DNA of 64,000 nucleotides from the NCBI GenBank assembly GCA_035079385.1, contig JAVHKY010000052.1, positions 13,578,001-13,642,000 on the forward strand, in the 5' to 3' direction. Position 1 is the first letter of the stretch. Each line of letters starts with the position of its first letter. The translations under genes and the position numbers were made by a program. This document shows, one piece after another, positions 23,854-45,383 of the stretch. Under the pieces are notes generated by a model that saw only the letters and a list, made by a program, of their open reading frames with translations, was not told where the DNA came from and did not search any database. The stretch comes from Aspidiotus rigidus. Its lineage: Eukaryota; Arthropoda; Insecta; Hemiptera; Diaspididae.

Positions 23854-24546
23854 ATGGCAGAGATCACCGACCTAGGACTGAACTTCAACCCCGATACTAT
23901 TTTCGCCGACTTTGAACGAGCAATCCACTCGGCAGCTCTTAGTCGTACAGTGTGGCCCGCAGCTCAAGTAAAAGGATGCCGGTTTCATCAAGGCCAGAAC
24001 TGGTGGCGGAACATTCAGCAGAACGGACTGGCTCCAGCGTATAGGGATAAAGACAGCGAAATAGGCCACTTCCTTGAGTATTTCTTTGGCTTACCTTTTC
24101 TCCATCCAGATGCCGTAGAAGAATGTCTCCGTGACGATCTCATGCCACTGTTACCAGATGACGATAGAGTTCGCAAATTTGTTGATTACATCTTCAAGTA
24201 TTACGTTCAACCTGACAGCATGTTCCCTCCTAGTATGTGGGCTGAATATTCATCGGCTACCAACCGCACGACAAATGCTTGCGAGTCATTCCACGCCCAC
24301 TTCAATAAACGTTTTTACGCTGACCATCCCAAAATTTTTGATATATGTGATGGTCTTCTCCAAGTCCAGTGCATGTCATGTGCTAAAATTCTAGACATTT
24401 GTAAGAGCAAAAAGCGGACTGGTACAATAAAAAAAGAAGCATCCGTTGCCACATTAATGACGCGACATGATTTGGGAGAATTGAATCGATTCGAATTTAT
24501 TCAACGTGTGAGCTTCAAATTTCTGGCTGTACCAAAAAATTTGTGA
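23854..24546 (+). pseudogene. MULE transposase catalytic region, C-terminal part
   Basis: A 230-codon frame containing the second catalytic Asp (TIFADFERAIHSA, about residues 18-30), the CRFHQGQNWWRNIQ segment that follows it in Mutator-type transposases, and the third acidic residue region (NRTTNACESFHAHFNKRF, about residues 133-150). The frame ends after FLAVPKNL. In a different frame immediately afterwards residues such as DLFFYAEARNFLVNFDKA continue, suggesting a further frameshift near 24543. An intact protein would cut and paste the element. This copy cannot. Confidence 0.8.
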
Positions 24547-28351: not shown

Positions 28352-28937
28352 CCGCCCTACATTTGCTTTCTTGCGTTTTGGCTATTTGGCATTCCAATTA
28401 GATTCCAATAAAGTGAGACATCCGTGACTTCGATATTGAATTTTCGAAATTGACGTGAATTGTTTTTCTTTCTTTAGTCCTCACGTTAAATTTGAAATAA
28501 TGAAAGACAACCACCAATTCTTCAGATAATTGCTAAGCACAATCTTTGTCGTAACCCTAAACTATTCGATTACTCATAGCAGTTAAACTTCTCCAGTTAA
28601 AAAGAACCATTTTCCAAAAATGATTGCCTAGCACATATTAATTTTCGATGAATGTCAACAAAAATGATTGCTTAGCGTTTTCAACCAATAAATTAATGAA
28701 TGATACAGATTTTTCATCTCTTGAATCATTCATGACCCCCCCCCCCCCCCCCCGCCAAGTACAAAGATATATATTATTACACGCCATTCGCCTGATTTCG
28801 TAACTTCAACTTTATTACGCATAAACCTTCTCCTAGGCAAGCTAATGCAATGGAAACAAATTCCAAGTTCGTAGGTGAAATAGGAATAAAGTTAAATGGA
28901 TTTGCAATTTTGCAACTTCTCTTTATATAATAGATAG
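28352..28937. other. non-coding stretch with a poly-C run
   Basis: A run of about 15 C residues, preceded by further C, lies at about 28737-28753. The rest is AT-rich with no gene. Confidence 0.5.
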
Positions 28938-30406
28938 TGTGATGTAACAAGAGTAAGAGCGGAGAACATACCCGTACAACACAGAGACCGACAGGAAAAC
29001 ACGGATAACGCAACTTATCGAGACAGCAACCAAATCAAATGTTCTTGCTTACTTCGGAAAAGCTTTCACATAGACATAGCCCGCGGGCCACCACCGTCCA
29101 CCTTTGGAAGTACTCAAGACTCCGATCTCAGTCTTACCCAACTCGATAAGACCAGACTAGCTCAGGCGGCAGAGCACGAATACCCACAAAAGGGGACGCG
29201 GGCAGTCCGAGGGTAGACCACTTGTCCATTTTCGGTTCACTTTTCGAGATCACTTAGGCTATAAGAAACGCTTATACCAGGGGAAATCAAATTTGCCGTC
29301 GATGTAAGCTCCACTTACTTACCAAAAAAAAAAAAATTTTTTTATCGTCATCGTCATTTATCCGCAGCTAGAAGAAGAATTACGTTCGCCCACGAAGACA
29401 GAGTGCGAGAGAGACAAAAAAACAAAACTAAACGAGGATCGCATAAATCGATCAAATAAAAAAAAATTATGGGACTGCTAGAAAATTTGGAAAATCGGAC
29501 CGGAAGAAGGAGAAATCGAATAACGTTCGTAATAAATTTTCGAATCATTTTTTTTTTTTTTTTTTTTTCAAACAGAGGTCTAGCTTCAAGCTGTTCATTG
29601 CTAATCAATAGGTAAAGACGAATGCAGAGAAAAAAAAAAAATCGACGTGATACATTTATTCAACTCAAAATTGACATCCGATAAGATCAAATTGAAGTCG
29701 GGTTCGATTTGCCGCAGGAAAATACGAATTATTTAATAGAATAAATTTAATTAAGTCTATGAACCAAATGAGGCAAACTTGAATTCGGACGGCATAGCAG
29801 CTATCATCCAAAAACCAGATGTCCAGATCACGTGATGTTCCATTTAATCCACAAACGCGTATCCACTTCTCGACAGCAAAAATCTCCGAAGCAATTAGCG
29901 TATGAAAAATTTATATTTTCCACGATTCACTCTTTTTCGACTCACGATCGAATCAAAAAAAAACTTTGAACTTCTTGGTAACGAAGATCGAAAGAGAAAA
30001 AAAAAAAAACTTTTTTTTTTTTCCCATAACTTACGCTCGTTCTTCCTCTCCGAAAACAAACTCACAACGCCACCACTGAGCCCTCGTCGGCTCATCTCCT
30101 CCTTTTCGTGCAAAAACTCCCTTCTCTCTTTTAATTCGACTTTGATTATCAGATAGTCGAGACATATGGTGGGAGAAGATAAGTTAAAAACGAAAAGGTC
30201 TCGTTTTGTAACGGGTAGAATAATTTGCTTCAAGAAATAACCACTATATCGAGTTCGGTAGAGAGAGAGAGAAAAAAAAATAATGATAAAATTTCCTTTT
30301 CGACTCTCTCTTTTTTTTTTTTTTTTTTTTTAAAGAATTCCTATCTATTCGACTCGTTTACCATAGGAATGACTTTCTCGTATGAGTAATTGATCGATAT
30401 TTCACA
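28938..30406 (-). repeat. 3' LTR of the 14.4-kb retroelement (1469 bp)
   Basis: Begins TGTGATGTAACAAGAG and ends GATCGATATTTCACA on the plus strand. Matches 41628-43293 nearly throughout. Contains long A and T runs at about 29320, 29550, 30000 and 30310. Confidence 0.9.
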
Positions 30407-30963: not shown

Positions 30964-32640
30964 TTACACAAAGAAATTAAAATTCTTCATTTCTTTTTTC
31001 GAGTCAGATTCGTCCGATGCGAAGCTAACTCTTTTCGATTTCGTTTTCCTCATTACCCTTTCTGAGTCTGAATCATCAGACTCAAACCTGATCGAGGCTT
31101 CTATTCGACTCGGCTTTTCATAAATGTCGTATTTTCTGATTGGAAGCTTTCTGTATTCCTCCTCGAACTCGTTAAACTCTTTTCGAATCAATGTGATTTG
31201 TTTTATCTCTTTCGACGGCCGACTCATATTGACGGGCATGTCTCGAAGCACTCCATCGACAGTATTTTTCATAAATAGGTGTGGTTTTTGTGCGCCGAAC
31301 AGTGCGGCCGATACGTTTGCCATTTGATTCTTCCGAATATAGATTCGCAGAGTCGCCTCGGTCCATTGTTCTATTTGTGTTTTGAAGTAATCTCTGCCTT
31401 GGCCTTTCGAGTCAACCATGCTACCTCTGATGCTCTTACCGTATTCTTCTAAATGGAAGTTCAGTTTCTCGCATGATTCTGCCCCCAGCACCATCACTCG
31501 TCCCAAGGTGTCGTCTTTGATCACTACCGGGTTGACCATGATCAATCGGCTCATTTTCTGTTTCGACTTGTCTTGAATACGAAACCCGATTTCCCGTCGG
31601 TATATCTCGGCTTCGATGTCTTTCATGACTGTGTATTGGAGGGTTATTCCATACACGTTTTTTCCGTTAAGCCTCGGAGCAATTTGTCGGGCTGTTGGAA
31701 ATCGACATTTCTGGTAATTTTCGATGAATGCTGCGGTTACATAGTCGCGATTGCTCGACAAGTCAAGGATGATTGACCCCTCATGCTCCACTGATTTCTC
31801 GACATCAAACCAGGCGTGGATTTCGGGCATCAATACTTTGAAAAAGAATTGGTGCTCGAAAGTGGACAGGTTAATGACCTTGTACTTTTGCGGTCCTGCT
31901 TCAAAGAGACAGAGTTTGCGGGTTCCCTTTGATAATTCGGACTGCAAAGTCTCTTTTGCTCTATCGGCAAACGTGGCTTCTCTCCAATTTCCACTTTGAC
32001 GCGTTAACGAATCATCTTTTTGTTTCTGAATCGACTCAATCTTTGATGTAGGCTTCGACTCTTTCATTGATGTATTGACGATTTCTGACTGTTTCGAATC
32101 ATTTATTCCAATATCTCGATCCTGCAGCGTCGATTTCCGTCGCTCCTCATTTTCGAGCACCGACAGATGTATCTTTTCGAATGTTGTATTAACGAACCAC
32201 TTCATGACTTCTGGATCGATATATTCTTCGTCAATGTCTTCGGCTGTAGTAACCATGTCGAGGAATCCCGGGCATTCGGGGTGTGCCCACTCAATTCCCT
32301 CGATTGTTTTCACGTCGTCATTTTCGATTGGTGTTGAGACAATGAATGTTGGGCATGTTGGAATCTTCATCCCGTCTTGGCTCAGCCTCATGTTCCATCT
32401 TGATCTGGCCAATACTTCGAAACTTGCCTTGGGATCCAATTCATGGATATGTCCGCCTTTACAGCGAGCATAAATTTTTGGCATTCGGAATCTAACTTTT
32501 TCGGAAGGGCGTTTGAACTTTTCTGGAAGTTTAAAACCCAGTATCTCTATCGATTTTTCGTAAAATTTGAGGATTCTCTCCTCATCTCGAATTAAGATTC
32601 CGTGACTGTAGAGGTGGAAGTTTCTCACGTATTTTGACAT
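30964..32640 (-). CDS. 558-residue ORF of unknown function in the env position
   Basis: Intact ORF starting at an ATG 136 bp after the pol frame stop. It starts MSKYVRNFHLYSHGILIRDE. There is no signal peptide, no hydrophobic membrane span and no furin-like site, so it is not a recognisable envelope protein. The N-terminal third contains Cys/His residues (ARCKGGHIHELDP and GIEWAHPECPGF) that might bind a metal. The middle (about residues 190-240) is charged and possibly disordered. A second folded-looking region follows (about 240-480). The C terminus is Ser/Asp/Lys-rich (SDDSDSERV, ASDESDSKK). I know no family for it. It is unbroken although pol is broken. It could be a nucleic-acid-binding, capsid-related or host-derived accessory protein. 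Confidence 0.8.
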   Translation of the reverse strand: MSKYVRNFHLYSHGILIRDEERILKFYEKSIEILGFKLPEKFKRPSEKVRFRMPKIYARCKGGHIHELDPKASFEVLARSRWNMRLSQDGMKIPTCPTFIVSTPIENDDVKTIEGIEWAHPECPGFLDMVTTAEDIDEEYIDPEVMKWFVNTTFEKIHLSVLENEERRKSTLQDRDIGINDSKQSEIVNTSMKESKPTSKIESIQKQKDDSLTRQSGNWREATFADRAKETLQSELSKGTRKLCLFEAGPQKYKVINLSTFEHQFFFKVLMPEIHAWFDVEKSVEHEGSIILDLSSNRDYVTAAFIENYQKCRFPTARQIAPRLNGKNVYGITLQYTVMKDIEAEIYRREIGFRIQDKSKQKMSRLIMVNPVVIKDDTLGRVMVLGAESCEKLNFHLEEYGKSIRGSMVDSKGQGRDYFKTQIEQWTEATLRIYIRKNQMANVSAALFGAQKPHLFMKNTVDGVLRDMPVNMSRPSKEIKQITLIRKEFNEFEEEYRKLPIRKYDIYEKPSRIEASIRFESDDSDSERVMRKTKSKRVSFASDESDSKKEMKNFNFFV

Positions 32641-32776: not shown

Positions 32777-34387
32777 TCAGTTGGGTAAAATGGCCTTCTT
32801 GGCCAGCCTATCTGCCTCATTATTATTCTGATCGAGGTGATGACCTTTAATTTTGGTGAACATTACTTCTCTCAGACAATTTGCAGCCTTTTCAAGCTGC
32901 AGATAGACAAAATCATTTGGACGACCATCAATCGAATCAGGATTAGACTTGCTGTGTCTTGTGGCTCTACTGACCCTAAAATAATCCACTAGAAGCTTAC
33001 AATCAGTGCGAATTTCTACCTGGTGAAACCCTAGATCTTTGGCTATACTTAGTGCCCTAAATGCTGCGAAGATTTCCGCCTCATTATTCGTATGTTTTCG
33101 TGGTAAAGTTGGGAGTCTTTCAGATTTATTATGCTTACAATTTGGACCAAAATAAATCCCTATTCCAGCAAGACTTTCTTTGTCGACACTGCCATTTCCA
33201 GTGCAGGCTCCGTCGATATAGATTACTACTCGTTTTTCAAAAGTCCGAGTCCAATCGTCTGCGGTCTTGTGGAATTCTGTCGAAGCATCCTCTAGTTCCC
33301 TAGTTATAATTTTTACTCGCAAATTTCCCCAAAAATAGAAGTGTTTTTTTCGAATTTCTTCCTGAAACTTGAGCGGATTTTCCGTTCCTTCGAATTTTAT
33401 GTTGTCAACATTCGTATGAATGGCGATTGCAGCTGACCCTACTTGATGGGCTGGTTGAGTTAATCTAGGACTGCGTCTATAACTAGCATCTCTTTCGATG
33501 TGTTGATAAGCTTCTCTAAGCTCCTTTCGACTCTCTTCTCTTTCGACGACTGTCTTCCTCCCCTTTTTGGGGGGAAGTAGAATTTTATGAATTCTCTGAT
33601 TCTCTTTCGGATCTTTGAAGCGAATAATTGGTAATTCATTAGAGATTTCTTTTCGATACTGTTCGTCGACTTTAAGTTGTTGGTTTTTCCAATTTCTAAA
33701 TCGAGTGTTTTCTGGCTCTTCCTGAACTATGTCTGGAAGCCGAACAATATTTCGAATATTGTGAACTTCATCTGGGATGTCGTTTGACAAGAGACATTTC
33801 AATCGATACTGATTCCTATTTGTGATCTCAACCACTTTGTATGGGGCTCTATATTTCCAGGTTAATTTCGCTGTATAAATGTTTGCTTTGTCAGATTGCT
33901 CATGACCCTTGAGTTTCACGAGATCCCCAACTTTAATAATTGATTTCTTTTTCGACCGTCTATCTACTCGCAATGCTTGTTCTCTTGTTCGACGGATAGC
34001 AATTTCGACTTTTTCTTCAATGTCGATATTTCCTCTAGGTAGCTTGAGGATCTCAGCAAGTTCGTCTTGAATTGGTTCCTCAAACTGGAGCTCCCACGGT
34101 GTTGATAGAGTAACCGTGTGTTCCACTCGATTGATGATCGTCTCAATTGCTGACAGATGTTCAAACCATCGATTGTGTGGGTTTCCAGCTATTCTTAGCC
34201 TTAGCATATTACCAATTCGGCCTATCATGCGTTCAGCTAAATTCGATTGTGGATTATATGGGCTTATATGTCCTGCCTCAATTCCCAATTCCTTCATTCC
34301 ATTATAATACTCATTAGAAATGAAGCATTTTGCATTGTCACTAATGACATTCGAAACAGGGCCAACTTCTTTGACGTAATTAGCCAT
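32777..34387 (-). CDS. integrase C-terminal part followed by an intact RNase H1-type domain
   Basis: 536-codon frame. Residues 1-60 complete the integrase core: Asp17 in VISDNAKCF and Glu52 in NLAERMIG, a D-35-E spacing. Residues 150-215 look like the integrase C-terminal DNA-binding region (VGDLVKLKGHEQ). A linker then leads to residues 388-536, an RNase H domain with all catalytic residues: Asp392 (YIDGACTGNG), Glu438 (NNEAE), Asp462 (EIRTDCK), His in KIKGHH and Asp526 (NNNEADRLAKK). The pattern DGACTGNG..NNEAE..RTD..GHH..N.EAD is that of cellular/archaeal-type RNase H1 rather than the usual gypsy domain. It overlaps the preceding frame (34294-36813) by about 90 bp in a different phase, so integrase is split by a frameshift. 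Confidence 0.88.
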   Translation of the reverse strand: MANYVKEVGPVSNVISDNAKCFISNEYYNGMKELGIEAGHISPYNPQSNLAERMIGRIGNMLRLRIAGNPHNRWFEHLSAIETIINRVEHTVTLSTPWELQFEEPIQDELAEILKLPRGNIDIEEKVEIAIRRTREQALRVDRRSKKKSIIKVGDLVKLKGHEQSDKANIYTAKLTWKYRAPYKVVEITNRNQYRLKCLLSNDIPDEVHNIRNIVRLPDIVQEEPENTRFRNWKNQQLKVDEQYRKEISNELPIIRFKDPKENQRIHKILLPPKKGRKTVVEREESRKELREAYQHIERDASYRRSPRLTQPAHQVGSAAIAIHTNVDNIKFEGTENPLKFQEEIRKKHFYFWGNLRVKIITRELEDASTEFHKTADDWTRTFEKRVVIYIDGACTGNGSVDKESLAGIGIYFGPNCKHNKSERLPTLPRKHTNNEAEIFAAFRALSIAKDLGFHQVEIRTDCKLLVDYFRVSRATRHSKSNPDSIDGRPNDFVYLQLEKAANCLREVMFTKIKGHHLDQNNNEADRLAKKAILPN

Positions 34388-36813
34388 ATATGTCTTAGAA
34401 CTTCTACCGTCCCTACCTTTCTAGTCGGATAAATTTTCGTGAATCTTGAAAATCCGTCATACACGACCAAACAATATTTGTAGCGATGATTACTTGTTGG
34501 GAGGGGGCCCAAGTGATCGATGAATACGTAGTCCCCTTTCTTATTAATTTCGATATGCTCTGAGGCTGGGATTGAAGCTTTCGCATGATTTTTCATAGCC
34601 AGACACAATTGGCACCTCGAAACATAGTCTAATATTTCAATCATCATGTGGGGCCAATAAAAATTTCTTCGCAGCAGTCGACGCATCGCATGTAAACCTG
34701 GGTGACAATACTGTATATGATAAAACTCAATTATCGACCTCCTAATCCTTTGTGGAACTAATATTTTAGGATGCCCCCATTTGCTTAGACGTGCCTGATA
34801 CCCGTGATGATTAATCACGTTGGACTCATTCTCTCGAACCCACTTCTGTAACATTCTGTCTTCTTTCTGAAGGTTTACAAGGTTTTCGAGGTTTTCTCGA
34901 AGTTCATTATCTACTTCGATATTGTTGACCTCGACGTTATTGTGGAATAGATCACCTAGGTCAAAATCATCAAACTCTACTTTGGTTTCTACTTTTTTCG
35001 GTCGACTTTCAGTTGGTGGATACTCTTTGAGGTATTCGGCGATTTTCTCTAATCTCTTGGGAATGGCTAAAACTTTCGCATTAAATTCATGGATTTTCGC
35101 ATCAGCTTTTTGCAGTCTTTGAGAATGTGTTGGCCCAGATGAGAGAAGTTCTGACCAGGTTGCTGGAAGATAAATGATTAGCTCGTGGCCATACAGCATA
35201 TAGCTATACCTTCGAAGCACTTCTCGAATCGCCATGAATTCTCTCTCTATCGGCGAATATCTCATTTTGACTTCTTTGAAGGATTTCCCAACGAATGCCA
35301 TCGGTCTATAGCTTTCACCCTCCTTCCACATGATTACTGCGGAGTATGATCTTTCAGACATCGAAAAAAGAATCTCAATTGGGACATTATCATTCGGATG
35401 AAAAATCATGATTTCTCGCGATAGAGTAGTTTTGATAGACTCGAAAGCATTCTTTTCGACTTCTGTCCATCTCCATGGGACGCGGGCTTTAGTAAGCTCA
35501 GTTAGTACACTGCGATGTTCGGCGTAATTTGGTAAATGTTGCGAAAAGTAGTTTGTCGCACCTAAGAATTTCCGAACGTCTTTCACACACTTTGGTGGGT
35601 GTATCAATCGAACCAATTCGCATTTTTCAGCGTTGGGTTTAACCCCATGTTGGTTGATGATGTATCCAACAAACTTCATCTCGTTTACAACGATTTCGGA
35701 TTTTTGTAAGTTCAAGGTCAATCCGATCCGGTTCAATTTCCGAAGCACTCGCTCAAGATGTTCATAATGTTCCTCAATCGTTTTGGAGAATATTATAACA
35801 TCGTCGACATAGGATAATACACAATCATCCAACTCTTTCAGCGCTTTCGACATCGTATCGATGAATATAGCCATAGATGAAACTAGGCCAAACGGAACTC
35901 TCGTATACTGATAGAGATCGCTTCGGTATCTGAATGCAGTCAGAGATCGATGGTCAGGGTGTAAGGGTAACGTGAGAAACGCATTTCGAATATCTAGCCT
36001 AGTGAATATCTTTGCACCCGCAACTCGTTGCTTGAGCAATTCAATATTCGGAGTTTTGTTCTGTGGAGAGTTTAGAAATTTGTTTAGCGCTCTTGCATCT
36101 AAACATACTCGAACCCTTCGTTTTGTCCCTGGTATCGGAACCTTTTCCCTTTCGACTATAACTATATTACTAGCATGCCTTGAACGGCTACGTTCAATCA
36201 GACCCTCTCTGATGTATTCGTCAATTTGGACTTGAGCGAGGTCATATTTTTCTTTTGGATGACTCCACTCTTTACTTTTAATGACAATTTGTGGTTCAGG
36301 GAGTTTGAGCTCTAACTTAATATCAGGAACCCTAAAAAGACCTGTCTTTTCGGACCACAACTTCGGAAATCTATTCTGAATTGCTTCAATGCGACTCCTA
36401 TCATATTTGATTTCAATGGGAGGTGGTTCGTGAAGATCTAACATTTCGAATTGCGTTATTTCATAGCATTTTGAGAATTCTCGATACACATTTTCTTCAA
36501 TCTCATCCGCTTTCGGACTTTCGACACATTCTTTTCGAATCTCATCTGATAATTTGTCTGCCTTGCCCCCTGCAGATAACATACGAGCAGCGCAGCGACG
36601 AATCACATCTACTGGTTCTTCGACACATCCAACCAGCCCAATTCCCATGATAGGGTCTCTCCCTAAAAACATTAGAACTTGATCGCTAAACAGTCCTGCC
36701 ATTTGATGCATTACTGCATCTCGAAATCCAAAAAGACAATCAGTGGCTAAGTTTTCGACGATGATATAGTTCAGAACAATGTGAACCTCGTTTTTTCCGA
36801 AATCACAAATCAA
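34294..36813 (-). CDS. pol: protease C-half, reverse transcriptase, degenerate RNase H, integrase N-part
   Basis: 839 codons. Residues 1-30 hold the distal part of a retropepsin (TDCLFGFRDAV). RT occupies about 180-400 with catalytic motifs TRLDIRNAF (Asp274) and SYVDDVIIFS (335-338). The RT-linked RNase H at about 470-550 has lost active-site residues: the expected TDAS is ILFSMSERSYSA, and the expected D in YTDHKPL reads YLPATW. The integrase zinc finger HHCC lies at about 699-737 (HIQYCHPGLH, CQLC) and the first core Asp at FIDHLGP (766). The frame is in phase with the upstream frame across one TGA (36819-36817). The first codon shown is TTG, so it is expressed only as part of a polyprotein. 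Confidence 0.92.
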   Translation of the reverse strand: MICDFGKNEVHIVLNYIIVENLATDCLFGFRDAVMHQMAGLFSDQVLMFLGRDPIMGIGLVGCVEEPVDVIRRCAARMLSAGGKADKLSDEIRKECVESPKADEIEENVYREFSKCYEITQFEMLDLHEPPPIEIKYDRSRIEAIQNRFPKLWSEKTGLFRVPDIKLELKLPEPQIVIKSKEWSHPKEKYDLAQVQIDEYIREGLIERSRSRHASNIVIVEREKVPIPGTKRRVRVCLDARALNKFLNSPQNKTPNIELLKQRVAGAKIFTRLDIRNAFLTLPLHPDHRSLTAFRYRSDLYQYTRVPFGLVSSMAIFIDTMSKALKELDDCVLSYVDDVIIFSKTIEEHYEHLERVLRKLNRIGLTLNLQKSEIVVNEMKFVGYIINQHGVKPNAEKCELVRLIHPPKCVKDVRKFLGATNYFSQHLPNYAEHRSVLTELTKARVPWRWTEVEKNAFESIKTTLSREIMIFHPNDNVPIEILFSMSERSYSAVIMWKEGESYRPMAFVGKSFKEVKMRYSPIEREFMAIREVLRRYSYMLYGHELIIYLPATWSELLSSGPTHSQRLQKADAKIHEFNAKVLAIPKRLEKIAEYLKEYPPTESRPKKVETKVEFDDFDLGDLFHNNVEVNNIEVDNELRENLENLVNLQKEDRMLQKWVRENESNVINHHGYQARLSKWGHPKILVPQRIRRSIIEFYHIQYCHPGLHAMRRLLRRNFYWPHMMIEILDYVSRCQLCLAMKNHAKASIPASEHIEINKKGDYVFIDHLGPLPTSNHRYKYCLVVYDGFSRFTKIYPTRKVGTVEVLRHIWLITSKKLALFRMSLVTMQNASFLMSIIME

Positions 36814-36816
36814 TTT

Positions 36817-37818
36817 TCATTTCATTCGTACCATTCCCCTAACGTTAAGTGAACTCCCATTCGCGGATCGCAGTCTTAACCATGGGATTGGTTTTACTAT
36901 GGGTCGCTCCTTAGGTGGAATTTTACTCATGATATTATCAAAACATCTACCCTTCATTGAGGTTAGAGGGCACCCCGAATCAAATTTTGACATGAATTCG
37001 ACTTGTTCCACAGCCATGCGGAGTTTCATTTCCTCGGGTCTCAATTCATCATCAATTATTTTTTCAACAATGAGATCATTCTCTCTTTCGACTGCACAGA
37101 CCAATAGATCGTCAAATACCTGCCAGACCAATAGATCGTCAAATACCTGTTCCTTAGCTAGTTGCACTACATAATTTCGAATACTATAGGCGACATTATC
37201 TGCGACATCATGTGTCCATGAATTCATTTGGCGATCACTAATCAATCGAAATACGTTACAACGAAATTGAATATTTACTTTATTTAAATTCTTGATATCC
37301 TCATAACGTCTACAGTTTGAGAGAAAATGATGTAAAACATTAATATACCTTACTTTCGACTTATGTTTATGACGATATATACTGTCTCGAATCGCTAGGT
37401 TAATTATCTTTATATTTTGGACTGTTAGTTCGTCGGGATTCGGTCCGCAGATCGGTGATATAAAAATGATTAGTTTAGACTTATATGAGGTGACAAGAAG
37501 ATCGATAATTTCGACTATCTCTTCTTTAATATTATTTCGACTTACGGGATACTTCCCATCGGCTTGATCTGACCCTATTAGGATCATTACATATGGTGAA
37601 TTTCGTTTCTCTTTGGCTACCAATCGGCTTTTACGTAATCGAGTCATGAGAGTGTTGGTAGACAGGTGATTCTCTAAGAATGGCTTCGACCCCTTAAATT
37701 CATACATAAAATTGGTGACGTGACTCGTTAACTGAGCACACATTGAGTCCCCCATCATTTCGAATCCCATCCATTTTATTTCATTTAGATCTGTGGGTTG
37801 TGTGGGATCGATAGCCAA
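36817..37818 (-). CDS. SGNH/GDSL-like domain followed by retropepsin N-half
   Basis: 333 codons with no ATG start, in phase with both neighbours. Residues about 17-220 resemble an SGNH hydrolase: block I GDSM (Ser25) in GFEMMGDSMCAQL, strand plus block III position in YVMILIGSDQADG (81-87), a strand LIIFISPICGPN (116-127), and a late His (WTHDVADNVAYSI, 201-213). The Asn/Asp of a classical GxND block is replaced by SD, so catalysis is uncertain. A 27-bp tandem duplication repeats VFDDLLVWQ/VFDDLLVCA (225-242). Residues 279-284, FDSGCP, are the DSG active site of an aspartic protease. The distal half of the protease lies past the TGA. An SGNH domain ahead of the protease is not a standard gypsy arrangement. 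Confidence 0.75.
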   Translation of the reverse strand: MAIDPTQPTDLNEIKWMGFEMMGDSMCAQLTSHVTNFMYEFKGSKPFLENHLSTNTLMTRLRKSRLVAKEKRNSPYVMILIGSDQADGKYPVSRNNIKEEIVEIIDLLVTSYKSKLIIFISPICGPNPDELTVQNIKIINLAIRDSIYRHKHKSKVRYINVLHHFLSNCRRYEDIKNLNKVNIQFRCNVFRLISDRQMNSWTHDVADNVAYSIRNYVVQLAKEQVFDDLLVWQVFDDLLVCAVERENDLIVEKIIDDELRPEEMKLRMAVEQVEFMSKFDSGCPLTSMKGRCFDNIMSKIPPKERPIVKPIPWLRLRSANGSSLNVRGMVRMK

Positions 37819-37827
37819 CTCATACTG

Positions 37828-38103
37828 TTATTCAGATTTTCGAACCCCTAACCTAGACTCCTGTTGATTACTGGATTTTTCATTCGATTGGTTTTCTGAG
37901 GTGACGAGAGATGATCTACCTTTCAATTCATAATTTCTCTTATCATTTCTCCTTTTACGTTGAGCTAAAACTTGTTCGCAGAAGACGTAGAGTTCGTCTG
38001 AGTCTGATATATTTTCTTTCGATTCATCCTTTGAGATGGGCGAATTTTTTTCTGACTCGTATTCCAAATCTTTATCATTATCGCTTTCTACGACTTCATT
38101 CAC
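37828..38103 (-). CDS. charged linker frame between Gag and the SGNH domain
   Basis: 91 codons, Ser/Glu/Lys/Asn-rich and probably disordered (YESEKNSPISKDESK). It overlaps the end of Gag in the -1 frame: the Gag terminus reads GGA AGA AAA TAG, and slipping back one base within the A run enters this frame at ATA GAA GTG. It ends at TAA, which is followed in the same frame by CAG and then the SGNH frame. A -1 shift plus stop read-through, or a simple nonsense mutation, are the two readings. No domain is recognised. Confidence 0.6.
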   Translation of the reverse strand: MNEVVESDNDKDLEYESEKNSPISKDESKENISDSDELYVFCEQVLAQRKRRNDKRNYELKGRSSLVTSENQSNEKSSNQQESRLGVRKSE

Positions 38104-38105
38104 TT

Positions 38106-39410
38106 CTATTTTCTTCCGATATTTATCGAATGTCTCTCGGTCCAGTGGTGTTGGATCACGTACCTACATGCTTCATTTATAGACTGAAAATTTATAGCTT
38201 TTCGGCGAATCTCGGACCCCACATTCCTAGTGTATTCATTCTTTTCAATGATTTGACCGAATATCCTAATTCTCTCATTTCCTCTCGGAACTTGATTTAT
38301 TACGATATCCTTAACCTCCTTCACGAAATCCCAGGGATCCCTCGTCTCTTTCGAATCTGATAATGTCCACGATATTATCGAATCGGCCATACGTTTTACG
38401 TCAGGACCTTTTGTCACTCTCGCTGGTCCCTCATCTGCGCCTAATCTAAATATTGATGTTTCGATCAACTCATCGGCTTCGCGTTGATAATAATCTGAAT
38501 CACTATCTGAATCTCTATTACGATTATTCGGTCTTTCCCCTCGATTACCTCGACGGTCTCTATGCTCATTTCGATTGATGTGATGATTCTCCTCACCAGA
38601 ACTACTACCGTCACTTGGATCAAAATCAGGGGGACCAGAATACCCAACATTACGATGGGTTGAGAAGTTAGTACTATTCCGCCTATAATTCCGACTGCGT
38701 GATTCTCCATTTCGACTATTCCTATTAGGATTGATTTGATTGCTCTCTTTCCTCTGTCGATTTTTTCTTTCGTAGATAGGACGATTATCTCTCGACTTAT
38801 CCCTGACAGTTTGATTCAGATCCAATGGGCTATTAAATTCAGCATTATTCGAATCCGAATCCTCTATATTTTCGTCCTTATCATTATTCCCCTGAACTTC
38901 TGTTGATTGAGCGATCGGGTCTGCAAATTCCACGGATTGTCGATTATTTTTCTCTGATCTTTTTGCTCTTCGATTCTCTCTTATTTGATGCTCCCCCTCA
39001 ATATATTCGACAATTCTTTCCTGCACTCGTTGATCAACAGTTGCAGCAAGCGCCTCTTCCTGCAATCGCATCTGTTTTTTCAATTCTTGATTTTTCTTTT
39101 CGACTGATTTAACCTCATTCACGGCTAGTTGCAGTTGGGTAAACCCACCTATATCCATAAACTTTCGAAACTCGAGATATTCGGCAGCACTTATCTGATT
39201 CGGTTTCTGAATGTTACTCGTAGTAGTGTTTCCCCCCGCGGCATTATTGACTTTTGCCGCCGCTGAAGGCGCATTTTTCTCATTCGCATTCTTATTTGTT
39301 TTGGAAGAAGTGGTATTTACAGTTTCGAGAGGGGTAATGGGTGAATTGACATTTTCGTCAGCTTCCGAATTTTCTTTATCATTTTTATTACTCTGTTGTC
39401 GGGTCATCAT
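38106..39410 (-). CDS. Gag-like protein without zinc knuckle
   Basis: 434 codons from an ATG. The N-terminal half is low-complexity (Asn/Thr/Lys/Glu), with a heptad-like region at about 90-150 (VEKKNQELKKQMRLQEEAL). The middle is Arg/Asn/Ser/Asp-rich (RDRRGNRGERPNNRNRDSD). The C-terminal part (about 325-434) looks folded and could be the capsid: SWTLSDSKETRDPWDFV through EACRYVIQHHWTERH. No CCHC zinc knuckle is present; the Arg-rich middle may bind RNA instead. Position after the 5' LTR and leader and before protease identifies it as gag. Similarity to named Gag families is not evident by eye. Confidence 0.8.
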   Translation of the reverse strand: MMTRQQSNKNDKENSEADENVNSPITPLETVNTTSSKTNKNANEKNAPSAAAKVNNAAGGNTTTSNIQKPNQISAAEYLEFRKFMDIGGFTQLQLAVNEVKSVEKKNQELKKQMRLQEEALAATVDQRVQERIVEYIEGEHQIRENRRAKRSEKNNRQSVEFADPIAQSTEVQGNNDKDENIEDSDSNNAEFNSPLDLNQTVRDKSRDNRPIYERKNRQRKESNQINPNRNSRNGESRSRNYRRNSTNFSTHRNVGYSGPPDFDPSDGSSSGEENHHINRNEHRDRRGNRGERPNNRNRDSDSDSDYYQREADELIETSIFRLGADEGPARVTKGPDVKRMADSIISWTLSDSKETRDPWDFVKEVKDIVINQVPRGNERIRIFGQIIEKNEYTRNVGSEIRRKAINFQSINEACRYVIQHHWTERHSINIGRK

Positions 39411-40217
39411 TTCAAATCAGAGGTCAGTCTAATTAGTTTTTCTTTACTAGATAGAAATTTTTCTAACAACAATCGATACCCCCTTTTTTTTTTTTTTTTT
39501 TAATATATATAGTCTATCTCGAATCAATTGAGACAACAGATCAGATTTCTAATCTTACTTACTCGTTCGACTCTCGATCTCAATTTATATTTGAAAAGGG
39601 AGGATGGTAGAAGAAATTTTCGACAACGAAGAGAGAGAAAGAAAAAAAAGTTTTCTTTTTCGACACAGGATATAATTTTAAATTGAAATATGATCTAAGT
39701 ACTCACTCGATCGATGTTTACGACTTTCGACTTTTTCGGTATCTTCCAATCGAATCCGGTTCTTGCGCTTTTCCGCTTCAGTTTGAAAGCTTGGAAGCGG
39801 TTGTACCAAAGCTAGAAAACTCACTCGAATCGAATAGAAAATGAAACAAAAACGAAGAAAAACAATAACCGTTGTTCGTAGAATGCTTTCGAATCAAAAG
39901 TCAGATAGAAGGACGAAAGGAAAATCAATTCGATTAACGAAAACGTATATAAAAAAAAATTTCTTTACCGCTCGAACACAGAATAAAGTACGTGTATTTG
40001 CTAGTAACTGAACATACAATATGCAAGAGCAGGTATGATAGGTTAGGATCTTGATGTGCCTTATCTTCGGTTCTCACTAGATAAGCTTAGCAGACTGGGA
40101 GTTGGATATGCTTAGTTCCAATGTGGGATTTCCACCTTGTGTCTATTCGATCTAAGTACCTATTATACTTTCGATTGCTCTAATTCGAATCACTGTTAGC
40201 CTTATCGTTGTGAATTG

Positions 40218-40248
<31 letters not shown>

Positions 40249-41627
40249 TATTTGTTTCCTGCTTGACAGCTAAATTTTTCATCTAGAATATTCTTCACAA
40301 TTCTTTTGTCATCAAGCTTTACGACTATCGTGTGTTTTGTAATGTCCTCTTTGCTTTATCGACTGACGATTACTACTACACTTACTTCGTCGTAATAGTT
40401 TACGCTGAATGTTCGAATCAGATAAGCAACACGGGAAAATTCCCCACAAAGGATTTGCCTCGTCTCACGAATACTCGAATCATTCGAAACATGTTTGTAT
40501 TGTATTGACTTCGAACCTTCGATGAGAAAAAGAAAAAAAGAAAAAAAAAAAAAAAAAAGAAGAGAAAAGAAGAAAAATACTCTACGTATAAAATTTTACG
40601 AACATTCGTCTGCGTTGATTTCGGGAAGAAGAGAGAGAAAGAGAAAGAAAATGAACAGAAAACCTTTTTTTCTGGAAAGAACCCAACAAAAATTTCAAGT
40701 TCGGAATTTCTAGGACAGGAAAAACGGAACCTGATTTGCACAAAATAGCGCTATGACCTACTCTGGGTCGAGTGTTACTCTTTGAATTTTTTATTCGGAG
40801 AGCTTTCCGAAATTGGTGTGCTCGTAAGAACACTTATAAATTTTTTTTTGAAGCTAGGCCTTTTATCGACTCAAAAAAAAAAAAAAACTTTACTTTACTA
40901 CAAAGTCCATTCGTTAGCTCTACTCGTGCGATTTAATGACCTACTCTGGGTCGAAATTTTCGACGTAAGAACCCACTTCGGGTGCTCGTTGACACTCCTA
41001 CGACGCGTCCGTCGCTTCAGAGTCCAGGGTCTCGGAGTGGAAGTCAGGAACTATGTCAGGAACCATACAAGATGACCCCTCTTTTGATCGCTCTAGTTAT
41101 CACAGGGAAGACTAAGGATCTGGACTACTATGGTCCTGGGCGGTGGATTTTCCCTAATCTGTCATGCCACAGGTTTCGGGTGTCGGGCGCCAGGTGTTCA
41201 ACACACCAACACACTGCCAGTCTTCCATCCGCCTGACTGTACAGTGTGCGCAAGAGTAAAGACAACGGAGAGTCGTTAATCGAAATATGGGTGTCCAAAG
41301 GACAAAGGGGAAGAACAAAAACTATTTTTACGAGATCATGAAAGTTGGGTCTCTGGTTCATCCAAATGGGACTTTTGGAGCCAGAGTGGATAAATAACAA
41401 TACGAGCGGCGATAACACGACTTCGAACCATGACACACGAGGGGGGGTGCCCCCATGTGATCAGGACAGTAGCACAGCGTTTACTGTGAGACCTCAATGG
41501 AAAGTGTTGATGAAGCTGCCAACCCGACAGTCCCCAACGGAAACCGAAAATACACACGCGGCCATAAAGGTCGCGGGTGCACCCCGGCTCCACGTTGTCG
41601 CGCCAAAAATGTTAAAATGTAGGTTTA
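39411..41627 (-). promoter_or_regulatory. 2.2-kb 5' leader of the retroelement
   Basis: Lies between Gag and the 5' LTR. It contains no long ORF, several A/T and purine runs, and the word ACCTACTCTGGGTCGA twice (about 40757 and 40939). The length is unusual and would fit packaging or internal translation signals, but I see no specific structure. Confidence 0.6.
41590..41605 (-). promoter_or_regulatory. candidate primer-binding site
   Basis: Minus-strand TGGCGCGACAACGTGG lies about 22 bases inside the 5' LTR end. It begins with TGG, as expected for the complement of a tRNA CCA end, and resembles sites used for tRNA-Lys priming. The spacing is larger than usual. A second TGGCGCCCGACACC lies further inside, near 41190. 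Confidence 0.4.
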
Positions 41628-43293
41628 TGTGATGTAACAAGAGTAAGAGCGGAGAACATACCCGTACAACACAGAGACCGACAGGAAAACACGGATAACG
41701 CAACTTATCGAGACAGCAACCAAATCAAATGTTCTTGCTTACTTCGGAAAAGCTTTCACATAGACATAGCCCGCGGGCCACCACCGTCCACCTTTGGAAG
41801 TACTCAAGACTCCGATCTCAGTCTTACCCAACTCGATAAGACCAGACTAGCTCAGGCGGCAGAGCACGAATACCCACAAAAGGGGACGCGGGCAGTCCGA
41901 GGGTAGACCACTTGTCCATTTTCGGTTCACTTTTCGAGATCACTTAGGCTATAAGAAACGCTTATACCAGGGGAAATCAAATTTGCCGTCGATGTAAGCT
42001 CCACTTACTTACCAAAAAAAAAAAAAAATTTTTTATCGTCATCGTCATTTATCCGCAGCTAGAAGAAGAATTACGTTCGCCCACGAAGACAGAGTGCGAG
42101 AGAGACAAAAAAACAAAACTAAACGAGGATCGCATAAATCGATCAAATAAAAAAAAATTATGGGACTGCTAGAAAATTTGGAAAATCGGACCGGAAGAAG
42201 GAGAAATCGAATAACGTTCGTAATAAATTTTCGAATCATTTTTTTTTTTTTTTTTTTTTTCAAACAGAGGTCTAGCTTCAAGCTGTTCATTGCTAATCAA
42301 TAGGTAAAGACGAATCAAATACACTATACGAACAATACCGGAAACTTCCGTGTCGTTTTTGAACCATTTAGACTAGTGGACGGGATTGGTACTACCATAG
42401 TAATCAAACGGGATTTTCGACTAGCGGCTAGGATTGTTACTAATCTCCTTTGTGTTTCGTGGGTCAACAGCGCTCAATGTATTTCTAATGGGAGTTTCCG
42501 GTATTGTTCGTATAGTGTATTTGGACGAATGCAGAGAAAAAAAAAAAATCGACGTGATACATTTATTCAACTCAAAATTGACATCCGATAAGATCAAATT
42601 GAAGTCGGGTTCGATTTGCCGCAGGAAAATACGAATTATTTAATAGAATAAATTTAATTAAGTCTATGAACCAAATGAGGCAAACTTGAATTCGGACGGC
42701 ATAGCAGCTATCATCCAAAAACCAGATGTCCAGATCACGTGATGTTCCATTTAATCCACAAACGCGTATCCACTTCTCGACAGCAAAAATCCCCGAAGCA
42801 ATTAGCGTATGAAAAATTTATATTTTCCACGATTCACTCTTTTTCGACTCACGATCGAATCAAAAAAAAACTTTGAACTTCTTGGTAACGAAGATCGAAA
42901 GAGAAAAACCATAACTTACGCTCGTTCTTCCTCTCCGAAAACAAACTCACAACGCCACCACTGAGCCCTCGTCGGCTCATCTCCTTCTTTTCGTGCAAAA
43001 ACTCCCTTCTCTCTTTTAATTCGACTTTGATTATCAGATAGTCGAGACATATGGTGGGAGAAGATAAGTTAAAAACGAAAAGGTCTCGTTTTGTAACGGG
43101 TAGAATAATTTGCTTCAAGAAATAACCACTATATCGAGTTCGGTAGAGAGAGAGAGAAAAAAAAATAATGATAAAATTTCCTTTTCGACTCTCTCTTTTT
43201 TTTTTTTTTTTTTTTTTTAAAGAATTCCTATCTATTCGACTCGTTTACCATAGGAATGACTTTCTCGTATGAGTAATTGATCGATATTTCACA
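41628..43293 (-). repeat. 5' LTR of the 14.4-kb retroelement (1666 bp, with a MITE)
   Basis: Same ends as the 3' LTR (TGTGATG..TTTCACA). Longer because of the 208-bp MITE at 42316-42523. A poly-A/T block present at about 30000 in the other LTR is deleted here near 42906. Confidence 0.9.
42316..42523. mobile_element. 208-bp MITE inside the 5' LTR, 7-bp target duplication
   Basis: Ends CAAATACACTATACGAACAA and TTGTTCGTATAGTGTATTTG are perfectly inverted. Flanked by GACGAAT at 42309-42315 and 42524-42530. The other LTR shows the empty site (one GACGAAT). No ORF. Confidence 0.92.
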
Positions 43294-43777
43294 ATAGATA
43301 ATGTTAATAAGCTCTGAAATTTTTCTTTTCTTGATGTTCTCCTCCCTACTTACAATTTTTGTACTATTGAAATCAAAAACATGGCCCTCCTCAAGGGCAT
43401 GGTTGGCTAAAGCAGTGTGATTAGAGTGGTTTCTAACATCATTCTTACGTTGATTCAGGCGTGCCTTAAGTTTTTGGCCCGTCTCTCCAACATATGCAAT
43501 GGGGTAGTTCGAACAGGGGACACTATACTCAACACCTGATTTTTCTTCATCAGGGACTTAATCTTTAATGGGTATAAAAAATATATAATATCACAATTGG
43601 AATTCTCTTTACAGGGAGAAGCACTTGGATCGTAATCAAGGACACTTTTAATGAAAGAAAAAGGATATCCGTTCACCCAAAGGATATCAATAAGTTTTTT
43701 AGTCATAACGACCTGAAAAATGAGGTCAGATTTATTGAAAAAGTTTCTTCTTAAATTTATAGCCATATTTTTGTTGT
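43294..43777 (-). pseudogene. Penelope-like element C-terminal fragment (RT end and GIY-YIG)
   Basis: Minus-strand remnants of the same protein encoded at 43778-44735: AINLRRNFFNKSDLIFQ and FIKSVLDYDPSASPCKENSN in one frame, then, after a deletion of roughly 100 bp and a frame change, the GIY-YIG endonuclease segment with PIAYVGETGQKLKARLNQ and HTALANHALEEGHVF. Directly abuts the inverted plus-strand copy near 43777 and the retroelement at 43293. Confidence 0.75.
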
Positions 43778-44912: not shown

Positions 44913-45383
44913 TCAGGAGGGGGGTAGTTAGTAGATGAGAATACAAGCGAAAAATTTGGTCACCTCGTCGGGATCCGAACCCGAGACCTTTCGCTTGCCG
45001 GGCGACTGCTCTAACCGCTGAGCTACGAGGAGATCAAATGATTTCGCTTAAATTCTCAAATACCAACGACGAGAACAAGTACGTCACTGCCCGCAACGGC
45101 GATAAACACTCATAGAGTGTATTTTTGAGGGAGCAAGAACTAGCTTGCATCAAACCTCAACGAATATAAACCTGACTAAGGAAGAACAACGAAAGACAAC
45201 GATTTTTTACGTTACGGGAAACTATAACAGGAGGGGGTCAGCGGTTAGAGCAGTCGCCCGGCAAGCGAAAGGTCTCGGGTTCGGATCCCGACGAGGTGAC
45301 CAAATTTTTCGCTTGTATTCTCATCTACTAACTACCCCCCTCCTGTTATAGTTTCCCGTAACGTAAAAAATCGTTGTCTTTCG
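44913..45383. mobile_element. composite insertion with inverted tRNA-like sequences, 11-bp target duplication
   Basis: Flanked by TTGGTCTAGTA at 44902-44912 and 45384-45394. Contains two tRNA-like units in opposite orientation (44957-45032 and 45238-45302), each followed by the same tail, which includes TTTTTCGCTTGTATTCTCAT. The right part is a foldback whose arms (45188-45237 and 45335-45385) contain TTTTTTACGTTACGGGAAAC and enclose the second tRNA-like unit. A variable-length duplication fits SINE-type integration. Confidence 0.7.
44957..45032 (-). tRNA. tRNA-like sequence with CCA present, probably SINE-derived pseudo-tRNA
   Basis: Minus-strand cloverleaf: acceptor CTCCTCG pairs with CGAGGTG (one mismatch), TA, D-arm GCTC/GAGC, anticodon arm with loop CCGGCAA, and T-arm TCGGG-TTCGGAT-CCCGA. 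The loop would give anticodon GGC (Ala), but position 33 is C rather than U and the closing pair of the anticodon stem is G-A. The bases after the discriminator read CCA, as in a mature tRNA that was reverse-transcribed. Box A/B are intact. I favour a retroposed tRNA-derived head over a working gene. Confidence 0.5.

Follow-up and report, generated by a model that had tools for sequence, protein, structure and literature searches.

Several classes of retroelement have taken up SGNH domains, with lipids, membranes and ribonucleoprotein assembly all under consideration for their role there. CR1, RTEX and Penelope elements encode an SGNH esterase in the protein of their open reading frame (ORF) 1, ORF1p; its active-site residues are strongly conserved, and the ZfL2-1 enzyme is active (PMC3905857, in the sections available). 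Among long terminal repeat (LTR) retrotransposons, the Vesta1 elements of bdelloid rotifers carry a GDSL esterase/lipase with intact SGNH residues as a separate ORF3. The Athena-L Penelope-like elements encode GDSL derivatives in an extra ORF, which lack catalytic residues and group with PC-esterases (both PMC5408684, in part). The OSK domain of Oskar, an insect germ-plasm protein, is a non-catalytic SGNH protein (PMC3905857, in part), and its RNA binding is reported in a title cited in PMC7250577. Here, we describe a putative SGNH-like domain in a 14.4-kb minus-strand gypsy-type LTR element of Aspidiotus rigidus, located within a 64,000-nt stretch of contig JAVHKY010000052.1 (positions 13,578,001-13,642,000; GCA_035079385.1), hereafter the window.

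Compared by description with these systems, the window lineage resembles Vesta1 in that an LTR retrotransposon has taken up an SGNH-type domain, but the domain lies inside Gag-Pol before the protease and has lost some of the characteristic residues. It shares with CR1, RTEX and Penelope elements an SGNH domain encoded upstream of the reverse transcriptase (RT), whereas the element class and the state of the active site differ. Athena-L offers the likeness of an SGNH-related domain without catalytic residues, in another class of element. The likeness to Oskar is one of analogy. Capture of SGNH domains by retroelements is therefore already known; what appears to be new is the position between Gag and protease, of which we found no description in searches of open-licence literature, a result that does not prove its absence. 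The terms esterase, GDSL and lipase are absent from the main text of a paper on accessory domains of retrotransposon polyproteins (PMC6338049, term search).

A conserved domain precedes the protease-like stretch

The ORF that drew attention to the domain (36817-37818, minus strand) encodes 333 aa counted from a TTG and 336 aa from stop to stop (36817-37827), its bounding in-frame stops being TAA 37828 and TGA 36817. As the preliminary description stated, GDSM, YVMILIGSDQADG, LIIFISPICGPN and WTHD are followed in this frame by DSG, and the frame is in phase with pol, a TGA (36817-36819) separating it from the RT ORF (34294-36816). The proposed size of about 200 residues also stands (205 aa), but the extent given as residues 15-220 is properly 37156-37770, and the serine called Ser25, although present, is Ser28 when counted from stop to stop.

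Relatives were sought in a protein database and in the genome that contains the window, which spans 441 Mb in 102 contigs. From the database, the RT ORF search retrieved two proteins: P0003 (645 aa), which has the domain in full, and P0004, which has its final part. A search with the domain ORF gave 750 candidates, none at E <= 1; P0003 residues 1-310 returned P0003 alone, and scans of viral contigs with P0001, P0003, P0002 and a two-row alignment (A3) yielded nothing useful. The domain is 40% identical to P0003 over 208 aligned positions (E 3e-49, single comparison), and P0003 has the same layout, with the domain followed by the same DSG stretch and then by RT, without a stop from domain to RT. 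The genome search gave 51 match rows including the window (100% identity; others 99-23%), and the open frames that hold them extend to 2,597 aa at most; several rows are pieces of one copy or cover only the part behind the domain. Twenty genomic places were fetched, of which 15 supplied full-length domain rows, three were cut (L104, L105, L109) and two were broken pieces (L106, L117). Together with the window's domain (P0058) and P0003, these form a full-length set of 17 rows, 16 of them distinct. Alignment A8 (14 rows) leaves out L114, L118 and P0003, and identity to the window across it runs from 98% down to 22%; the value for P0003 in a separate alignment is 41%. The features of the domain ORF are as follows.

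36817-37827, minus strand: whole stop-to-stop ORF with SGNH-like domain, linker and protease-like start (DSG at 36973-36981), from the ORF list and motifs
37156-37770, minus strand: SGNH-like domain, 205 aa (P0058), from homology to P0003 residues 1-208 and genomic copies, and from fold and profile lines that are weak yet concordant
37741-37752, minus strand: block I-like GDSM (GD in 17/17 rows, Ser in 14/17)
37564-37575, minus strand: block III-like GSDQ (G-x-D/E in 17/17 rows, Asn in 0/17)
37207-37218, minus strand: block V-like WTHD (Trp in 17/17 rows, His in 5/17)
37096-37149, minus strand: 27-bp tandem duplication of this copy, behind the domain, from the sequence repeat

Three distant elements, viewed in pieces, all contain RT, and integrase was found in C4 and C52 (the corresponding piece of C18 lay outside the scan). 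In distant relatives the domain is inside one long frame shared with the upstream part. Given that relatives also carry the domain before RT, it is a feature of the lineage and not an accident of the window copy. Protein-level homology to P0003 and the genomic copies rule out a chance ORF. The described position between the gag-like ORF and the protease-like DSG was confirmed, and is the same in relatives.

Ratios of nonsynonymous to synonymous substitution (dN/dS) were obtained for five of 11 domain pairs, dS being saturated in the other six. Three young copy pairs had values of 0.08 (both L103-L101 and L110-L112) and 0.18 (L115-L116, with dS only 0.023); the others were 0.33 for L110-L115 (dS 2.3) and 0.53 for the window and L099, which differ by few changes. 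The domain is under protein-level constraint in three sub-families; the window's own family has too few changes to judge.

The residues of catalysis are incompletely retained

The SGNH blocks are defined by the Ser of GDS (block I), an oxyanion Gly (block II), the Asn of G-x-N (block III) and the His of DxxH (block V). These definitions are also touched on in the available parts of PMC5408684 and PMC3905857. In block I, GD is invariant, and the Ser is replaced by Gly in L108 and by Thr in L115 and L116. Block III reads G-x-D in 12 rows and G-x-E in five, and the Asn is found in none, as had been remarked of the window sequence. The Trp of block V is followed two residues later by His in P0058, L099, L118, L103 and L101; the DxxH His is thus lacking from the family at large, though the window has one, and the cut protein P0004 has Thr at this place. 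The candidate for the block II oxyanion Gly, G27, is invariant in A8, but is His in P0003. In the two family alignments, G7, D8, L41, G66, I88, N119, R141, W185 and Y200 do not vary. This looks like a scaffold in which the turns have been kept and the chemistry lost.

LHHF was considered as a substitute for the catalytic His and rejected, as it occurs in seven of 17 rows but in none of the distant ones. The losses are also seen in elements with frames >2,000 aa. Because the His is missing from 12 rows, the block III Asn from all 17 and the Ser from three, the sequences do not support assignment of the domain as a hydrolase. Relatives lacking the domain, with its Ser unconserved, would have told against the preliminary description; in fact they have the domain, and most but not all rows keep the Ser. 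Two roles had been suggested: enzymatic action on lipids or acyl groups is not supported, given the loss of catalytic residues across the full-length rows, while a non-catalytic binding module is the option that best fits these losses.

Evidence for an SGNH-like fold

An SGNH-like fold of the domain is supported by predicted models, short of proof. Two low-confidence AlphaFold models examined with two aligners, together with a profile comparison, ranked SGNH/GDSL enzymes first. When the 16-row family was compared with 10 SGNH proteins in hhalign, residues 41-102 aligned to the block III region with a score of 29.1 (E 0.0012, one comparison); GSDQ falls within the stretch that aligns to SGNH block III in the profile comparisons. 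By comparison, 100 column shuffles had a mean of 13.0 and a maximum of 18.9, the reversed family scored 15.1, and 11 control alignments of Pol pieces scored at most 20.8, three of these having fewer than four added relatives. For a profile of two rows the score was 23.9, and the highest of 150 shuffles reached 20.8.

Several results weigh against this assignment. Among the fold and profile matches, none reaches the significance cut-off. In single-sequence comparison, six of 61 control slices beat the window domain and seven of 61 beat the P0003 domain. PF13472 was matched by two of 14 members (best E 0.055), behind Phage_tail_terminator_3 (five of 14, best E 0.0099), and a PDB profile search placed 1yzf (E 1.2) after two unrelated chains. 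Other comparisons were uninformative: in global-mode hhalign one of 150 shuffles reached the score and the alignment ran end to start, the ORF gave three chance-like PDB matches to D-Ala-D-Ala carboxypeptidases (E 1.4-1.7), A3 matched nothing in the PDB, and BLASTP against TesA gave nothing significant. The domain has no Pfam match above cut-off, and a known Pol insert such as dUTPase was set aside on that ground. A post hoc motif pattern, present in one of 15 window ORFs of at least 150 aa, 18 of 200,000 domain shuffles and one of 54 other proteins, was not used.

The lines of fold evidence are individually weak; they agree on one fold and, where aligned, on one register. The SGNH/GDSL-like nature put forward in the preliminary description is in that sense supported by agreeing model and profile lines while falling short of proof, and structure prediction, on which it had been staked, favoured no other fold. 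We hold SGNH fold and descent with moderate confidence.

Possible roles of the domain

We consider it somewhat probable, on balance, that a captured SGNH-like domain has lost its catalytic apparatus and that this gypsy-type lineage retains it as a non-catalytic module where Gag and Pol meet. The domain would be translated immediately ahead of the protease-like stretch, either within Pol or within a single long Gag-Pol frame. Its charge is basic, and such a fold might attach to nucleic acid or to a partner from the particle or the host, thereby holding the Pol precursor or the RNA genome within the particle. A binding role is suggested with weak to moderate strength, and RNA as the ligand weakly; the best reading is an inactive, basic SGNH-like module that would either bind a partner, RNA being the first candidate, or have a structural part within Gag-Pol, with Oskar OSK as a precedent by analogy.

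An origin outside SGNH, in a lineage-specific alpha/beta domain that resembles SGNH only in strand order, seems unlikely to us. The low model confidence and the lack of a significant match to any known family would agree with it, and threonyl-tRNA synthetase editing domains do about equally well in VIA for the second model and take Foldseek ranks 5 and 6. However, the synthetase rows in VIA span only about residues 49-148 of 205, and both models, both aligners and the profile comparison put SGNH first. An active hydrolase with a rearranged active site, cleaving lipid or acyl esters in particle assembly or trafficking, could be imagined from the frequent GDS Ser, the block V His found in the family of the window and in a relative (L101, L103) and the activity of the ZfL2-1 non-LTR ORF1 esterase (PMC3905857, in part). 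We regard this as improbable, since the block III Asn and most His residues are gone, elements whose frames measure 2,324 and 2,597 aa have Gly or Thr in place of the Ser, and LHHF does not extend to the distant rows.

Loss of catalysis would also be compatible with a membrane- or lipid-binding module, in which acyl chains would occupy the former substrate pocket and Pol would be drawn to membranes. A membrane role has been proposed for the CR1-type esterase (available parts of PMC3905857), and a pocket could outlast catalysis; evidence for a pocket, however, was neither found nor sought, and the basic charge suits acidic lipids as well as RNA. We judge this quite unlikely. For the non-catalytic SGNH-like module, a wider version is conceivable though doubtful: the whole gypsy-type lineage may have converted an SGNH esterase that it captured into a permanent part of Gag-Pol, without enzymatic function, that selects or holds RNA in the particle, in parallel with the OSK domain of Oskar.

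Architecture of the host element

The other features of the element are these.

41628-43293, minus strand: 5' LTR (TGTGA...TCACA), from LTR-versus-LTR alignment
38106-39416, minus strand: gag-like ORF, 436 aa, from position only
34294-36816, minus strand: protease-like end, RT, gypsy-position RNase H, integrase zinc binding and start of integrase core, from Pfam and a PDB match
32777-34387, minus strand: remaining integrase (other frame), weak SH3-like tail (below cut-off) and second RNase H (residues 385-533), from Pfam
30964-32640, minus strand: orphan ORF, 558 aa, lying after the second RNase H and before the 3' LTR, without a family match
28938-30406, minus strand: 3' LTR (TGTGA...TCACA), from LTR-versus-LTR alignment

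The LTRs differ by so few mismatches (three, with four gap openings, across 1,480 aligned columns) that a young insertion is suggested; 208 bp (42316-42523) of the 5' LTR are missing from the 3' LTR. A 4-bp direct repeat, ATAG (28934-28937 and 43294-43297), flanks the element. The LTR pair with this target-site duplication, and the Pfam order of RT, RNase H and integrase with a Ty3-like RT, are those of Ty3/gypsy elements, and the best PDB match of the RT ORF is Ty3 Gag-Pol (E 4.9e-53). The gag-like ORF is so named from its position because a Pfam scan gave no match; after a frame break in the overlap 38106-38163 it continues in the frame 37828-38163 to a TAA. The protease-like stretch before RT is a candidate called from DSG and position, and a Pfam scan of ORF 36817-37827 shows no retropepsin. 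Where P0004 aligns with DSG (residues 77-85) it reads KVDMHSAYT, retaining the Asp but not Ser-Gly, and its protease may therefore be different or missing. The orphan ORF had no match in Pfam, NCBIfam or PHROGs scans.

Two stops, TAA 37828 and TGA 36817, interrupt the window copy, as do changes of frame within the gag-like part and the integrase. Among 11 other copies at 98-99% identity, the open frame around the domain is 1,674 aa long in nine and 440 aa long in two. Near-identical genomic matches measure 981 bases against 1,008 in the window, 27 shorter. A Met at 37768-37770 aligns with the start of the predicted protein P0003, so Pol may start there.

The second RNase H, C-terminal to integrase, matches PF00075 (E 4.8e-19), and its best PDB match is RNase H1; acidic residues occupy all four of what we take to be the D-E-D-D places. 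In the gypsy-position RNase H, Ser and Pro occupy two catalytic Asp places of Ty3 (for protein P0002, inspection by eye gives Thr and Pro), and this domain looks degenerate. Pfam also finds a second RNase H in the distant elements C4 (E 2.4e-24) and C18 (E 2.9e-19), the end of C52 lying outside the scan:

L120, 3002-4345: second RNase H, from Pfam
L122, 3220-3999: second RNase H, from Pfam

Dual RNase H, the new one adjoining the native one, is described for retroviruses, Odin and Tat elements (PMC9040795 and PMC10508981, in part).

Some further observations concern the surroundings. A primer-binding-site-like TGGCGCGACAACG at 41593-41605 (minus strand) is set apart from the 5' LTR, starting 22 bases downstream of its end. 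A tRNA-Ala gene with anticodon GGC (44957-45032, minus strand) lies ~1.7 kb beyond the 5' LTR, and a 230-aa ORF (23854-24546, plus strand) has a weak match to MULE transposase (E 0.0022, below cut-off).

Implications

If our reading is correct, this lineage keeps the domain under purifying selection yet loses its catalytic residues, and the function of the domain would be separable from esterase chemistry. The lineage would then be a natural experiment on the role of SGNH domains in retroelements, including those in which the enzyme is active.
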